A stretch of 64,000 bases of DNA, from the NCBI GenBank assembly GCA_039680605.1, contig JBDKTA010000022.1:248001-312000 (forward strand). Reading direction: 5' to 3'. This document shows, piece after piece, positions 9,916 to 17,140 of the stretch. The notes under the pieces were generated by a model. The model saw only the letters and a list, made by a program, of their open reading frames with translations. It had not been told where the DNA came from and searched no databases. Both the position numbers and the translations under genes were made by a program. The DNA is from Planctomycetaceae bacterium (lineage in GTDB: Bacteria > Planctomycetota > Phycisphaerae > SM23-33). The first letter of the stretch is position 1. Each line of letters starts with the position of its first letter.

Positions 9916-10930
<1,015 letters not shown>

Positions 10931-11074
10931 AGACAATACCCCAAAAAGACCATCCTGCCGCACGTGAAGCGCGATGCCCCGGTGGCCGCAACCCCATGCG
11001 ACTATGGCGAACGAGTCTACCCCCGGCCGATCGAGGGGTCAATGGCCTGTATTTTGATTTGCGATTTCGACCGA

Positions 11075-11791
11075 CTATCTCTGATAGCCGTGTTCATCCA
11101 TCGCCGGGGCGAGAAAATCGAACCAGTGGTTTTCGGTATCGCTCTTCCAGCGCCCGACGCTGTCCGGGCGGACGGGGATCTTCGCCAGCGGGATGCCCAG
11201 GAACGCTTCGAGGCGTTTGAGGGTGGCGTCCTGGTCGAGGATGAAGTCCTCGAAGCGGACCTTGATCCAGTGCCTGGGGCGCGGGGTGGCGCGGATGAGG
11301 TCGTTCTGGTACTTCCAACTTATCGCCCGCATGCGTCGCACGTCGTCGGTGGGCGGGTATTGAATATTGAACACTCGCAGGTCGTCGGTCACGTGGTGCG
11401 AGAGAATGCTGTCGCGCGGGTCGCGGATCCAGAAAATGTACTTCATGTCCGGAAACATCCGCCGGATCCACGGATACGCCAGCGTCGTCTCGGGAATCTT
11501 CCAGCCGCGGTTCTCCTGGCGGCTTTCCAGCACCGTCACCAGAAAGCTCTCGATCAGCCGCTTGAAGTCGCCGTCGATGGGTCCCTCGTGCAGCGCCGAC
11601 CAGTCCCACGTCAGGTCGCCGGTCCACTTGACGTACTTGCCCAGCACGCGGCAGGCGTCGTACATGTCGCCCGGCGGGATCAAGTCCCCCGAGCCATTAA
11701 GCTGCCCGCCCATGTACACGCCGCTGGCCGAAAGCGTATGCGACATCGCCCGAGTCCCCCCATGCCCGCGCCCGATCACGGTAACCATCAT
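11075..11791 (-). CDS. PAPS-dependent sulfotransferase family protein
   Basis: 238 residues; the start may be the second Met (11788). The 5'-phosphosulfate binding loop is GRGHGGTR (7-14). The 3'-phosphate binding element is YIFWIRDPRDSILSHH with R123 and S128. The size and these two motifs fit cytosolic-type sulfotransferases that move sulfate from PAPS to a hydroxyl or amine. A GAAGGAC ribosome site precedes the start. The next gene upstream in transcription is a sulfatase-fold enzyme, so the pair may build and remodel a sulfated compound (inference). The acceptor cannot be predicted. Confidence 0.82.
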   Translation of the reverse strand: MMVTVIGRGHGGTRAMSHTLSASGVYMGGQLNGSGDLIPPGDMYDACRVLGKYVKWTGDLTWDWSALHEGPIDGDFKRLIESFLVTVLESRQENRGWKIPETTLAYPWIRRMFPDMKYIFWIRDPRDSILSHHVTDDLRVFNIQYPPTDDVRRMRAISWKYQNDLIRATPRPRHWIKVRFEDFILDQDATLKRLEAFLGIPLAKIPVRPDSVGRWKSDTENHWFDFLAPAMDEHGYQR

Positions 11792-11816
11792 GATGAAGCG
11801 TCCTTCTTCAAAAACA

Positions 11817-11946
11817 TTTCACCGCAGAGTTCGCAGAGACCGCGGAGAGGAAGGAGTGAAAGACGGAACAATGGAATAAGGCTCTTAGTCCCAGTCCATT
11901 CCTATTCACTCTCGTTCTCTGCGTCCTCTGCGACCTCCGCGGTGAA
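11817..11946. repeat. Gene-less inverted-repeat element (TTTCACCGCAGAG family)
   Basis: A 130-bp element bounded by imperfect inverted repeats of about 30 bp. The left end begins TTTCACCGCAGAG at 11817, and the right end reads as its complement, ending CTCCGCGGTGAA at 11946. Its ends match those of the GxxExxY cassette at 13357-13885. The interior has no gene. It sits between the sulfotransferase start and the sulfatase stop codon, and looks like a deletion (MITE-like) relative of that cassette. Confidence 0.8.
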
Positions 11947-11956
11947 TCTTCCGCTG

Positions 11957-13354
11957 TTACGCCTTCGGCGCGCGGGCCTGGAGCTTCTGAGCGGTGCCCA
12001 CGTCGCCGATGTGCAGCGAATCGTAGGCCTGCTGGCTGGTCTTGAACGGCGCGCCGCAACCGGACCAGTCGCCCTGGGTGTACATCGGGTTGGTGCGGCC
12101 GGTTTCTTTCTCGCGCTTGGCGATCCACGCCTGCATCCGCGCCTCCAGCAGCGCCACGACGGCCGGCTCTTTCTCGGCGATGTTGTTGTTCTCGTCCGGA
12201 TCGTCGATCAGGTTGTACAGCTCGATCTCGGGCTTGAAGTGGAAGTCCGGCTCCAGGGCGTGGATGTACTTCCACTGCGGCGTGCGCCAGCCGTGCTTGC
12301 GCATCCAGGTGCATTCGGTGATGTAGAACTCAGTGGCCCCGACTCGCGTCTGGCCGTTCATCTCGCCGACGAGGCTCTGGCCGTCGAACTGGATCGAGTT
12401 CTTGACGCCCAGGATGTCCAGCACCGTCGGCATGACGTCCTGCAGCAGGCAATTGGTGCCGATGCGCTTGCCGGCAGGCACGCGCCCGGGCATGCGAAAC
12501 ACCAGCGGCACCACCAGCGTCGGATCGTAGATGCCGTGATGATCGAAGTAGCAGTCGTGGTCGTAGAGCGTCTCGCCGTGGTCGGAGTCGATGACCACCA
12601 GCGTGTTCTCGTCCAGGCCCAGGGCGGTGATCTCAGCGAAGATGCGCTGGATGCAGGCGTCCATGTAGGCCACCGCGCCGTCATACTGGGCGAGCACGTA
12701 GTCCTTGTCGGTCAGGCCCGGAGGCATCCAACTGGCCAGGTAGTCGCAGAAGGGCTTGAACGTGAAGACCGGGTCCATGGACTTGTTGGCCGGGTCGCAC
12801 ATGTCGGCGTTGTTATAGAACATCCGGTCGAACGGGGCCGGGGGCAGGTACGGCGAGTGCGGGTCCATGTGCCGCACCAGCATGTAGAAGGGCTTGTCTT
12901 CTTTGGCCAGGCGCCGCAGTTCCGGCAGGCACGCGTCGTTGGCGTTTTCGGCCTTGTGGCTGCGCCCGTCGCCGCGGTTGGGGTCCGGGCCCCAGCCGGA
13001 GAAGTCGATGTAGTTCTGGAACCCGCGGGCGGCCGTGTTGCGGAAGCCCACCGAGGTGGTGTTGTAGCCTTCGTTGTTGAGCACTTCGGCCAGCGTCGGC
13101 ACGCCCTCGGCGATATCGCCCTTGTGCCGCAGGGCCACGATGTTGTTCCCGAAGCAGTCGCGCCCGGTGAACATGCTGCCGTAGCCCGAGGTCGTCGGCA
13201 CGTGCGGCGAGAAGCAGTTCTCGAACACCGTGCCACCCTCGGCAAAGCGGCTCATGTGCGGCGTCGTCTGATGCTTGTAGCCGTACAAGCTCATATGATC
13301 GCGCCGGAGCGAGTCGATTCCGATAAAGATCAGGTTGGGTTTTTTCTGTGCCAT
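11957..13354 (-). CDS. Sulfatase-fold hydrolase with Thr at the nucleophile position
   Basis: 465 residues, alkaline phosphatase superfamily. Metal-binding sites are visible: D14 in FIGIDSLRRDH, H166 in RHMDPHSPY, and D256/D258/H259 in VIDSDHGE. At the place of the formylglycine motif C-x-P-S-R the sequence is T54-T-S-G-Y58 followed by GSMFTG. Formylglycine sulfatase chemistry is therefore not expected. Thr nucleophiles occur in phosphodiesterase and phosphotransferase members of this superfamily, so a phospho-ester substrate is possible (inference). The start codon lies 2 bp from the end of the GxxExxY cassette, which has replaced its natural upstream sequence. Confidence 0.85.
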   Translation of the reverse strand: MAQKKPNLIFIGIDSLRRDHMSLYGYKHQTTPHMSRFAEGGTVFENCFSPHVPTTSGYGSMFTGRDCFGNNIVALRHKGDIAEGVPTLAEVLNNEGYNTTSVGFRNTAARGFQNYIDFSGWGPDPNRGDGRSHKAENANDACLPELRRLAKEDKPFYMLVRHMDPHSPYLPPAPFDRMFYNNADMCDPANKSMDPVFTFKPFCDYLASWMPPGLTDKDYVLAQYDGAVAYMDACIQRIFAEITALGLDENTLVVIDSDHGETLYDHDCYFDHHGIYDPTLVVPLVFRMPGRVPAGKRIGTNCLLQDVMPTVLDILGVKNSIQFDGQSLVGEMNGQTRVGATEFYITECTWMRKHGWRTPQWKYIHALEPDFHFKPEIELYNLIDDPDENNNIAEKEPAVVALLEARMQAWIAKREKETGRTNPMYTQGDWSGCGAPFKTSQQAYDSLHIGDVGTAQKLQARAPKA

Positions 13355-13356
13355 AG

Positions 13357-13885
13357 TTTCACCGCAGAGATCGCAGAGACCGCAGAGTTTTTGTTTTAGT
13401 TCTTAGTGGAACGCCTGTCCACTATTGCCACACGGCAGTTATTCCTTCAGATTGTTTACAACTCTTGTCACTCCGTCCTGGAGCATCGCAACATTAAAGT
13501 TAATCAACAAGCCGGCACGGCACCGGGACAGCTTCAGATACGACAGAAGTTGGGCTTTATGAATAGGCGCGATGCCGTCGATCGCCTTTAGCTCAACTAC
13601 CACCACACCCTCCACCAGCAAATCAATTCGATACCCACAGTCAACCTTCACGCTCTTATAGACAACAGGCAATTCCTGCTGCCGCTCAATTTTCAGCCCT
13701 CGCTGGATCAGCTCATATGCCAGACACGCTTCATAAGCCGATTCCAGCAGGCCCGGACCTAAAGCACGATGCACATCGATCGCAGCACCGATAATCTGCT
13801 TCGTTATCTGATTCAGATATCCCGCCGTAATTTCTCTCTCAACTCCCATGCTTTCTCTGCGGTCTCTGCGATCTCCGCGGTGAAA
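13357..13885. mobile_element. Inverted-repeat cassette carrying a GxxExxY gene
   Basis: A 529-bp unit bounded by 31-bp inverted repeats at 13357-13387 and 13855-13885 that match at 30 of 31 positions (outer ends TTTCACCGCAGAG). The only gene inside is the GxxExxY protein, whose start codon is 5 bp from the right repeat. The unit fills the whole gap between the TIM-barrel stop codon (13888) and the sulfatase start (13354). No transposase or target duplication is seen. The layout suggests a mobile cassette. Confidence 0.75.
13439..13849 (-). CDS. GxxExxY protein (PD-(D/E)XK nuclease-like)
   Basis: 136 residues from the ATG at 13849; longer in-frame versions read through the TIM-barrel gene in the wrong frame. 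The name-giving motif is GLLESAYE near residue 33. The later stretch GYRIDLLVEGVVVVELKAID has the D...ExK arrangement of PD-(D/E)XK nucleases, and the family (PDDEXK_3) is assigned to that superfamily. Its codon use is more AT-rich than its neighbours, which suggests transfer. The gene is enclosed by 31-bp inverted repeats. Function in the family is unknown; a DNA-cutting role in moving its own cassette is an inference. Confidence 0.92.
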   Translation of the reverse strand: MGVEREITAGYLNQITKQIIGAAIDVHRALGPGLLESAYEACLAYELIQRGLKIERQQELPVVYKSVKVDCGYRIDLLVEGVVVVELKAIDGIAPIHKAQLLSYLKLSRCRAGLLINFNVAMLQDGVTRVVNNLKE

Positions 13886-13887
13886 TC

Positions 13888-14685
13888 TTACCGGGCGCCG
13901 CAAGCCTGAAGACAGGCTTGCATGTGGCCGCGGGACTCGGCGGCGATGATGCAGCAGTTGGGCAGTTGGTAGTCCTTGGCGCCGATGATCTCCAGGTCCA
14001 GCGCACCGGTGTAGCCGTTCTCGTGCAGCACGCGGATGTAGCCCAGCAGGTCGATGTCGCCGCGGCCGTTGGCCTGGTCCTCGGGCTTGCCCGGGCTGCC
14101 CTGGCGGCCTTTGCAGTCGCGAATGTGAACGTGTTTGATGCGCGACACGACAGCCGCCACGGCCTCGACGGGATTCTCGCCCGCGCGGTGAATGTGGCTG
14201 GGGTCCATGTCCAGACCGAACGCCGGCGAAGTGATCGCCTGCAACAGCCGCAGCGACGTGGGCGTGTTGTAGACCGACCCGCCGACGTGCGCCTTGACGC
14301 ACAGCGTCACCCCGTAGTGCTCCGCTCGGCGGGCCAGGTTGCCCAACGACTCGAGCACCTGCTGGAAGGCCGCTTCATCATCGCTCTTGCCGCCGGGACC
14401 GCAGTTGATGATCGGAATGCCCGCCTCGACGGCGGCTTGCATGGCCGCTTCCATGGCGGCGGGGTCCTGGCTGGGCTGCTCCATCCCCAGCAGTTCCAAC
14501 TCATACTGCTTGGCCAGGTTCTTGATCTGCACCGCACACTCGCGCCAGCGGTCGAGCACCAGGTGCTCGCTCATGCCGCCGATGGCCGAAATCTCGATGC
14601 CGTCGTACCCGGCGGCCTTGGTGTACTTGAAGGCGGTTTCCATGTCATAGCCGCCGAACAGAACCGAATTCACGCCCAGTTTCAT
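13888..14685 (-). CDS. Sugar phosphate isomerase/epimerase (xylose isomerase-like TIM barrel)
   Basis: 265 residues, matching the AP-endonuclease-2/xylose-isomerase-like fold. Visible hallmarks are the start KLGVNSVLFGG, AAGYDGIEISAIGG, the metal-site region GLDMDPSHIHRAG and HVHIRDCKGR near the C-terminal end of the barrel, then GALDLEIIG. Such proteins isomerise or epimerise sugars or inositols using a divalent metal. An AGGAG-type site lies just before the ATG. It is the first gene of the minus-strand cluster that continues, past the cassette, with the sulfatase-fold and sulfotransferase genes. The substrate is not predictable. Confidence 0.88.
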   Translation of the reverse strand: MKLGVNSVLFGGYDMETAFKYTKAAGYDGIEISAIGGMSEHLVLDRWRECAVQIKNLAKQYELELLGMEQPSQDPAAMEAAMQAAVEAGIPIINCGPGGKSDDEAAFQQVLESLGNLARRAEHYGVTLCVKAHVGGSVYNTPTSLRLLQAITSPAFGLDMDPSHIHRAGENPVEAVAAVVSRIKHVHIRDCKGRQGSPGKPEDQANGRGDIDLLGYIRVLHENGYTGALDLEIIGAKDYQLPNCCIIAAESRGHMQACLQACGAR

Positions 14686-14824
14686 GTCAGTTTCTCCTGC
14701 CGTTTTTCGTGAGGGAACGAGAGGGAATGGTTATCAGCGCGGCGCGGCAAAGTCAAGAAATTCAGCCCTCGCTATCGCTGCCACATTTCTGTTTTTGGCC
14801 CGTCGCGATCATCTTGACATGCAG

Positions 14825-17140
14825 CTACGCGCAACGAACGACGGCCAAGCCGTACACGGGGCCGACATATCCTTTGGGTTCGTCATTGGCGTGAAACGAC
14901 ACGCGCACCTGCGTCTTGCCGGCCGTCAACTCCGGCGGGATCGCGAACTCATGTTCCTGGAACACGCACGGCGGCGTGCGGCCGATGCCGACCGACCCAA
15001 CCGCCGTGCCGTCGACGCGCACCTCGAAGCCGCGCCCCTGGCCTTGGAAGCAGTACGCCAGCACGGCCATCGGCGCCTCGGGCGAGACCTTCATCGTGTA
15101 CGCGAACGCTCCGCCCTCGCCACCGATGCCCGTGCGGTTGGCCCAGCCGGCGTGCCAGGCCAGATCGCTCTTGCCCTCGTAGTGGTGGGCGGTCTCGGAG
15201 GCCTCGTCGCCGATGACGACGCGGTCGACGCCGCGCGTGCGATACCGCTGCCACGCCTGCTCGTGCCGCGCCCGCAGATCGGCCAGCCGCCGCGACCCCT
15301 CCGCCAGCATCGGCCAGTAGACTCCGTATGGTTCGTCCAGCACGCGGTTGATCGGCGTAAACATCAGATCCTGGTTGATCCCGCTGGTGCGGAGATTGAG
15401 CGACGTCTCCCCTGCCGGACGCAACCAGTTCTCGATGCTCGCCGCGTCGGCGGTCAGATACCAGTCCTCGACCGCCCCGCCACCCGTCGGCGCCGGCGGG
15501 CAGTCGTCGTCGGCCGCCGGGTGTACGAAGCGGTCCTGGCGCACGACGCCGGCCAGCACCACCGGTCCGCACAGGACCGCCCGCACCAGGTCGTCGCCGA
15601 TAAGCGGTTCCGTCGAGAGGCTCATTGACGCCTCAAGCTCGACAACGTCGCCGTCAGCCCAGGTTCTTTCCAGCGTGAACGCGCCCGATCCTGATTCCGG
15701 GTGCCGTGGTTTCTCAGCCGCCATGTCCCTGATGCTTCCATTGAGCCTTACCTGCGCCCCGCGTGCCCAGTGCGGCAGGCGAAGTTGCAGGGTGAACTTC
15801 TGCGGCGAGGGGCATCGCACAGTCAGGCGCGTTCGGGCGGCGTCGGGCATGGGCGTGTGCTGCTCGATCGTCACGTCGCGATGCTTCCACTCCAGCCGCG
15901 CCGGGATGAACTGCTCGACGGCCAGGGTCTGGTTTGAATTATCGTGCCAGAAGATATCCTGCCCCAGCGATCCGGCGGTTTCCATGCCCGTGCCGCAGCA
16001 GCACCAGAACGAATCGTACGGCGTGGAGTGGTTCTTTCGCACGCCGGCGCTCATGGCCAGCATGTTGCCGCGAATCATTCCGTCGCGCGGATCGAGGGTT
16101 CCCAGAACCGTGTTGACCATCGCCCGCTCGATGTAGTCGCTGTAGCAACGCTCGCCCGTGACCGACAGCAGATAGCTCGCCAGCTTGATCAGGTTATGCA
16201 CGCAGCAGAACTCGTGATTGACCGGCGAGAGCGACAGCGGCATCATCGCCGGATCGTGCCAGAGCTCGCTGTGGTCGCTGCCGCCGGTGCAGTACATCCG
16301 GCGGCTGGTGAAGAGCTGCCAGAAGTTCTGCGCCACGTCGAGCCATCGCTTTTCGCCCGTGAGCAGATACGCCCGGGCCGCCCCGACGACCTTGGGGATC
16401 GTCGTGTTGGCGTGGCGGTGGGAGAGGTTGTCCTCGCCGCGCGAGATCGGGTCGAAGAAGTCGCGCTCGTCAAACTTCATCGCCAGCTCGAGGTGCTCGG
16501 CCTTGCCGGTCAAGGCGTAGATATCGCAACAGCATTCGAGCATGCCGCCATACTCGATGGGCAGCACGATGTTGCGCCAGTGCTCGTCGCCGACGCGGCG
16601 GATGCGACCCAGGATGTAGTCGGCCAGGCGCGTCAGCACTGTCAGGGCCTGGGCGTTGCCGCGCAGGGTGTGCTGGTCGTAGAGGCCCGCCATCGTCTTG
16701 TGCATGACGTAGTACGGCACGCGGACGAACATGCCTCGCTCAGCCGCATCGAGCCGCGTCTCGGGAAAGCCCGCCACAAACCCGCCGCCCAAGGCCTGCT
16801 GGCACCGGTCCAGTTCGCCAACCATCCACGCGGCGCGCTCGTCGAGGTCGGCGTCGCCCGTGGCCGCGGCCATGAACGCCGACGCCGAGAGAAAGTGCCC
16901 GACGAAGTCGCCACGATAGCCGTACAGGTCGGGCTTTTCCGGACCGCCCAGGGGCTCGATGGGATTCTCGTCGATGTTCGAGATCAGGTAGAACTGCCGC
17001 ATGAGCCGCCGCGGCAGATCCTCCAACCGCATGTATCGATGCATCGCCTCCTGCGCGTCGGCCCAGCGAGAAGGCAGCAGCCGCACGTCGGCGAGGGAGA
17101 ACCGTTCCAGTTGCAGCGCAGGCTTTTCGTGTGTACTCAT
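14825..17140 (-). CDS. Glycoside hydrolase family 127-like (beta-L-arabinofuranosidase, DUF1680)
   Basis: 771 residues, slightly longer than usual for GH127. The zinc/thiolate site of the family is recognisable: E310-F-C312 in NHEFCCVHN and the Cys cluster C380-C382 in FWCCCGTGME. In the characterised enzyme HypBA1 a cysteine of this cluster is the nucleophile. The N-terminal three-quarters is an (alpha/alpha) barrel; the last 150 residues form a beta-rich domain of the kind often appended to this family. No signal peptide is seen, so it is likely cytoplasmic. The probable role is removing beta-L-arabinofuranose or a related sugar. No start ambiguity was noticed. Confidence 0.88.
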   Translation of the reverse strand: MSTHEKPALQLERFSLADVRLLPSRWADAQEAMHRYMRLEDLPRRLMRQFYLISNIDENPIEPLGGPEKPDLYGYRGDFVGHFLSASAFMAAATGDADLDERAAWMVGELDRCQQALGGGFVAGFPETRLDAAERGMFVRVPYYVMHKTMAGLYDQHTLRGNAQALTVLTRLADYILGRIRRVGDEHWRNIVLPIEYGGMLECCCDIYALTGKAEHLELAMKFDERDFFDPISRGEDNLSHRHANTTIPKVVGAARAYLLTGEKRWLDVAQNFWQLFTSRRMYCTGGSDHSELWHDPAMMPLSLSPVNHEFCCVHNLIKLASYLLSVTGERCYSDYIERAMVNTVLGTLDPRDGMIRGNMLAMSAGVRKNHSTPYDSFWCCCGTGMETAGSLGQDIFWHDNSNQTLAVEQFIPARLEWKHRDVTIEQHTPMPDAARTRLTVRCPSPQKFTLQLRLPHWARGAQVRLNGSIRDMAAEKPRHPESGSGAFTLERTWADGDVVELEASMSLSTEPLIGDDLVRAVLCGPVVLAGVVRQDRFVHPAADDDCPPAPTGGGAVEDWYLTADAASIENWLRPAGETSLNLRTSGINQDLMFTPINRVLDEPYGVYWPMLAEGSRRLADLRARHEQAWQRYRTRGVDRVVIGDEASETAHHYEGKSDLAWHAGWANRTGIGGEGGAFAYTMKVSPEAPMAVLAYCFQGQGRGFEVRVDGTAVGSVGIGRTPPCVFQEHEFAIPPELTAGKTQVRVSFHANDEPKGYVGPVYGLAVVRCA

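Follow-up and report, generated by a model that had tools for sequence, protein, structure and literature searches.

A GxxExxY nuclease-family gene between paired inverted arrays as a candidate small mobile cassette in a planctomycete genome

As a first-pass annotation had proposed that a pair of inverted repeats around a single GxxExxY gene forms a mobile cassette, we were interested whether this locus is indeed mobile and, as no transposase accompanies the gene, what might move it. The DNA analysed (the window) is a 64,000-nucleotide stretch of a planctomycete contig. We regard it as probable, with some reserve, that positions 13357-13885 hold one copy of a small mobile cassette which resembles REPIN/RAYT systems and carries a PD-(D/E)XK nuclease; that the repeats, here called arms, are the substrate of this nuclease is inferred.

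Anatomy of the locus and the encoded protein

The arms at 13357-13387 and 13855-13885 were confirmed as inverted copies identical at 30 of 31 positions, 467 bp apart, and the locus contains the following features (window coordinates):

11818..11847, plus strand: gene-less pair, left arm; its units belong to the CGCNGAG family also found in the cassette
11917..11946, minus strand: right arm of the gene-less pair
11957..13354, minus strand: flanking gene outside the cassette, a sulfatase-like open reading frame (from its own sequence)
13357..13387, plus strand: left arm of the cassette, TTTCAC followed by CGCAGAG-AT-CGCAGAG-AC-CGCAGAG; three inward-reading units, spaced by 9 bp
13439..13849, minus strand: GxxExxY gene, 136 amino acids, predicted single-domain PD-(D/E)XK nuclease fold (RecB/Cas4-like)
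13855..13885, minus strand: right arm of the cassette, the left arm in inverted orientation, again with three units spaced by 9 bp
13888..14685, minus strand: flanking gene outside the cassette, a sugar phosphate isomerase/epimerase-like open reading frame (from its own sequence)

The edges of the cassette lie where they had been placed, with the left arm 2 bp from the sulfatase start codon and the right arm 2 bp from the stop codon of the next gene. The enclosed gene is also more AT-rich than its surroundings, as claimed (GC 49.6% vs 65.5% in the window), and a GC content as low as this is found in just 0.08% of 411-bp windows. Two features had been overlooked, namely that the arms are themselves repetitive, each made of three CGCNGAG units of 7 bp in tandem with a spacing of 9 bp, and that a second inverted pair of the same unit family, without a gene, is located at 11818-11946, where it occupies most of the intergenic space between a sulfotransferase-like and a sulfatase-like gene (69 bp between its arms). 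A chance repeat can be ruled out from this second pair nearby and from the 288 copies of the cassette arm motif in the genome at no more than 2 mismatches, compared to 4 for the reversed pattern. No Rfam family matched in window positions 11000-15000.

The outer tip of the left arm (13348-13365) reads GGTGAAACT-ATG towards the sulfatase start codon and could act as a ribosome-binding site for the sulfatase gene; an arm tip usable in this way may explain why insertion beside start codons is tolerated. An antisense open reading frame of 831 amino acids (window 10904-13399, plus strand) ends in translated arm sequence (..FTAEIAETAEFLF), and arm arrays translated as protein probably give rise to many spurious database proteins.

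The only gene between the arms encodes, as noted before, a GxxExxY protein with a D...ExK motif, and it belongs to a nuclease family, so that the reported absence of a transposase from the cassette holds. Membership was met over the full profile for both TIGR04256 GxxExxY (E 1.5e-45; 154 bits vs a cut-off of 35) and PF13366 PDDEXK_3 (E 1.9e-43; 148 bits vs a cut-off of 22). Comparison of 25 relatives led to nine invariant residues (G33, E36, Y39, D76, E86, K88, Q100, N117 and F118), with Y104 present in at least 90% of them. The criteria for a RecB/Cas4-like PD-(D/E)XK nuclease are met by the D...ExK...QxxxY core (D76, E86-x-K88, Q100, Y104) together with the predicted fold. The best PDB match of the AlphaFold model (pLDDT 93) was Cas4 SSO0001 (4ic1, Z 9.6), followed at lower rank by lambda exonuclease, AddAB and Hjc, and the protein is predicted from this model to be a RecB/Cas4-like PD-(D/E)XK nuclease. 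A search of solved structures by sequence gave no credible relative. Purifying selection was observed, with dN/dS of 0 to 0.15 (mostly 0.04-0.15), indicating that the protein is maintained.

Recurrence of the layout and inheritance of arms with the gene

All four GxxExxY genes of the window's genome lie between inverted arrays, each of a different unit family: CGCNGAG for the cassette described here, ACAGAGACGCTGAG for L002, GGATT at 9 bp for L003 and CACGAATG for L004. The search across planctomycete relatives that had been suggested found inverted repeat flanks at 22 of the 24 GxxExxY loci with full flanks. When bacterial and archaeal loci were included, 125 of 145 (86%) had an inverted flank score of at least 26, which was reached by about 3% of shifted control positions (calculated for the named loci only). 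For the 80 named loci a score of at least 30 was observed in 66%, compared to 0.4% when positions were shifted within the DNA of these loci, and the typed members of these 80 loci alone span at least 16 named phyla, archaea included. Over the 145 loci, 673 units read inward toward the gene and 55 in the opposite direction. A local oddity of the window is ruled out by this recurrence across genomes and phyla. About half of the planctomycete genomes sampled (70/149) carry GxxExxY, with up to 15 genes per genome. At a Sphingomonas locus (L099, 2998-3426), GxxExxY is found between fabD and fabG and only a left arm (CACGCGAAGGCGCGAGGACGCGAAG) is visible.

Arms and gene were also observed to be inherited together. 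When the units were grouped into a G-ending class (GAG/AAG/ACG) and the rest (GAT/AAT/AGGAT, GGAA) and placed on a tree of 113 GxxExxY proteins, 3 class changes were required vs 17.8 after shuffling, and for the planctomycete sample only, 2 vs 14.7 (minimum 9). As both classes occur in the one genome of the window, the class split follows the protein and not the host. Of 58 cassettes, 52 have left and right arms with equal unit spacing, compared to a mean of 14 and a maximum of 26 after shuffling. Cassettes of like spacing also group together on the protein tree (17 changes vs 25.7 shuffled). These results show that the arms are transmitted jointly with the gene; binding of the protein to the arms is not proven by them alone. 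A divergence of the repeats independent of the gene, which would have refuted the cassette, was not seen, since unit class tracks the protein tree and both arms share their spacing.

The spacing is also reflected outside the cassettes. Anabaena cassettes have unit spacings of (10,12,10), (8,8) and (8,9). No other spacings were seen among 20 runs of three units in samples of three Anabaena genomes (cassette arms included), with some runs shortened to (10,12). Of the 75 G/A-class runs of three units in the window's genome, 68 are (9,9), matching the cassette described here.

Gene-less arrays and presence or absence in relatives

Dispersed gene-less elements were observed throughout the window's genome. 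Tandem pairs of the unit CRCRGAG occur 452 times genome-wide vs 2 for the reversed pattern, and strict arms less than 300 bp apart, as counted in 820 kb of this genome, form 27 convergent pairs compared to 1 divergent and 1 tandem pair, the convergent ones with interiors near 46 bp and of 115-136 bp. Contigs C4, C9 and C22 of the same genome (G000; L287-L326) carry two miniature families whose copies end cleanly within unrelated flanks. The copies of M1 are about 206 bp long (nine copies, 80-97% identical) and end in TA-RCCCG...CGGGY-TA (TA at both ends in nearly all copies); those of M2 are about 97 bp long (six copies). Being short and dispersed in unrelated flanks, with terminal inverted repeats and no gene, both meet the structural criteria for MITEs.

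The ends of M1 raise the question whether the arms are simply the termini of one transposon family, mobilised by some unrelated transposase, with GxxExxY as a passenger or as a helper in repair or excision. Short terminal inverted repeats with TA flanks are indeed like those of IS630/mariner-type elements, so that M1 could be mobilised by a TA-specific transposase, and the cassette itself has no recombinase domain. We consider this explanation unlikely, albeit the best surviving alternative, as a passenger should vary, whereas it is GxxExxY that such arms enclose in loci from 16 or more named phyla, and as most loci have too little room for a transposase gene. Moreover, unit class tracks the GxxExxY tree, and no autonomous or transposase-bearing relative of M1 was detected among the matches to M1 ends in 820 kb.

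Across genomes the arrays accompany the gene. Planctomycete genomes rich in arrays (excess of at least 50) make up 26 of 70 with GxxExxY vs 3 of 79 without (p 1.7e-7). The array-rich genomes without detected GxxExxY are G080, G068 and G119. Array classes that are also present on a cassette are commoner than the remaining ones (median 13.5 vs 4, p 0.004), and 18 of 25 typed genomes have a cassette class as their most abundant one, several genomes being typed only in part. The match between array class and cassette class across genomes is real but modest and not strict. A strict one-to-one pairing of array family and cassette looked perfect in 820 kb and was rejected, as it is weakened by the 39 AAG tandem pairs present genome-wide in the window's genome, which has no AAG cassette, and by the array-rich genomes without the gene. 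Likewise, CACAGAG arrays of spacing (8,9) have no matching cassette in the window's genome; an origin as copies of the L002 cassette, which has spacing (8,8) and a different outer sequence, is not supported. Arrays of a fifth family, TACCACAGAGGCACAGAGGCCACTGAGG spaced (8,9), for which no cassette partner was found in this genome, occur in G000 at C4 185904 and 206709 and at C22 122366 and 204615.

Presence and absence of whole cassettes were observed in relatives. In one genus, the spacer between a groEL-like gene and dnaJ holds the cassette in two species, is short in three and contains other open reading frames in two. Armed GxxExxY genes were found in two species of this genus and an arm-less relative in 7/7. 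This divergent relative (L055, L208-L211, L214, L215) has no arms in the three copies checked and is possibly an immobile lineage adopted by the host. At a first site in Anabaena, three species have the cassette and another lacks both arms and gene; at a second one, the cassette is present in four species, and one has a gene-less palindrome TTAAACGCAGAG-TA-ACTCTGCGTTAA instead. An apparent IS200/IS605-type insertion adjoins this palindrome (L216; G179 C1, about 4.284-4.289 Mb). For the cassette, a target-site duplication was sought in two congeneric groups, but the spacers are too diverged for one to be read. Some 270 kb of syntenic Anabaena sequence contained no clean polymorphic arm pair; a candidate in G182 (C56, about 188,406) turned out to be a solo remnant in a diverged spacer. 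The comparison of filled and empty sites had been proposed as a way to define the exact ends of the cassette, and it succeeded in part: unfilled sites between the same flanking genes are present in congeners, so that a complete lack of empty sites, the other result that would have spoken against mobility, was not seen, but the exact ends remain unresolved. The reading as a mobile cassette is supported, and neither outcome named beforehand as refuting it was met.

The presence of paired arrays in other bacteria has been interpreted differently. In Geobacter metallireducens, paired multicopy elements of tandem repeats have been described, with class 2 consisting of three tandem copies of the consensus TCTCCGTS[Y] per array and the arrays paired on opposite strands, and these arrays were interpreted as putative sites of IHF/HU-type global regulators; a fourth set was noted as resembling sequences in many genomes (Aklujkar 2009, PMC2700814). 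Many multicopy families are also described for G. bemidjiensis (PMC2996986). With the cassette arms, the Geobacter arrays appear to share a layout of three tandem units in inverted pairs at variable distance (PMC2700814), and the class 2 consensus fits the complement of the CACGGAGA units in a comparison of consensus sequences only. They are very likely the same kind of array as the cassette arms, a judgement that does not go beyond the consensus. The text available to us makes no link to GxxExxY or to mobility (PMC2700814).

It may therefore be asked on the basis of the Geobacter interpretation whether the arrays are chromosomal sites for a nucleoid protein or regulator, with GxxExxY as a self-regulating host factor and nothing mobile at present. 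The location of the arrays at gene boundaries and the purifying selection on the protein would agree with this. Near-identical gene-less elements of 206 bp in unrelated flanks, whole cassettes present or absent between the same genes in relatives, and several different unit families inside one genome would not, and we regard such a role as improbable. Even less credible is a selfish or defence module of homing or addiction type whose arms protect or mark the locus, which the Cas4/RecB/lambda-exonuclease type of the sole PD-(D/E)XK gene and its insertion between conserved core genes might suggest, as hundreds of gene-less pairs lie at unrelated sites, whereas homing targets one allelic site, and as just 5 relatives were found among 2.9 million viral contigs. 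A tblastn search of phages gave no match.

Known systems and a proposed route of movement

By analogy, the nearest functional counterparts of the mobile cassette would be REPtrons (REPIN/RAYT) and TIRtrons (PMC3733652), which also have a gene inside inverted repeats, many gene-less intergenic pairs and a link between repeat and protein (PMC3116915, PMC3733652). One REPIN/RAYT criterion is met here, as dispersed gene-less pairs share sequence with the repeats around the gene. Two others are not: RAYT and TIRYT proteins are HUH tyrosine transposases, whereas the only gene here is PDDEXK_3, and REPs are palindromes tagged with GTAG, whereas the arms consist of direct tandem CGCNGAG units without a GTAG/CGTC tag. 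The transposase expected for an insertion sequence is missing as well, the one gene of the cassette belonging to a nuclease family only. As these defining features failed, the cassette was filed under neither system. Prokaryotic MITEs resemble M1 and M2 in being short and dispersed in intergenic DNA with terminal inverted repeats; however, MITEs are defined by a parent transposase (PMC10969869), whereas no transposase-bearing relative was detected among the matches to M1 ends in 820 kb, and what appears to be the full-length relative encodes a nuclease. A homing endonuclease element would be expected to insert at and cleave a single conserved homologous site, but cassettes occupy different, unrelated sites. 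Cas4, lambda exonuclease and AddB act together with partners, namely Cas1-Cas2, annealing proteins and helicases. These nucleases share the predicted fold and the D...ExK...QxxxY core with the GxxExxY protein, which differs as a stand-alone domain of 136 amino acids with its own repeats.

GxxExxY (TIGR04256/PF13366), of which the protein described here is a clear member, is known only as a sequence family. No paper on its function or on flanking arrays was found in the open-licence literature, in line with the previous suggestion that the layout is undescribed, and searches of papers for the repeat strings gave unrelated matches or none. A GxxExxY gene between paired arrays, together with gene-less copies, points to an undescribed kind of small mobile element.

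For its movement we propose the following route. The cassette consists of the two inverted arms (7-bp units at 8-12 bp spacing) around the single nuclease gene, and the nuclease would recognise the arrays in its own arms, probably either by spanning the inverted pair as a multimer or by acting on the hairpin that forms when the region is single-stranded. Cutting at the arms would release the cassette itself and also, in trans, arm pairs without a gene, and the freed elements might then insert into intergenic DNA through host repair. The arms as nuclease substrate, cutting as the start of movement and the insertion step are all inferred, without biochemical evidence, and it has not been shown that the cassette is moved by its own nuclease rather than by a helper enzyme. 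More tentatively still, and short of an even chance in our estimate, GxxExxY cassettes may represent a new class of autonomous elements in bacteria and archaea, in which a lone nuclease without a recombinase recognises arms by unit sequence and spacing and mobilises its cassette along with hundreds of gene-less pairs, the specificity code co-evolving with the protein.

GxxExxY proteins are widespread in many phyla beyond the planctomycetes and uncharacterised, with no function found for them in the literature. Tying them to the paired arrays abundant in these genomes offers one hypothesis for both. As unit sequence and spacing co-vary with the protein, natural cognate and non-cognate pairs are at hand for comparing binding and cutting. 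If it is true that the nuclease alone drives the movement, the mobile element would move by a mechanism in which no known recombinase takes part.
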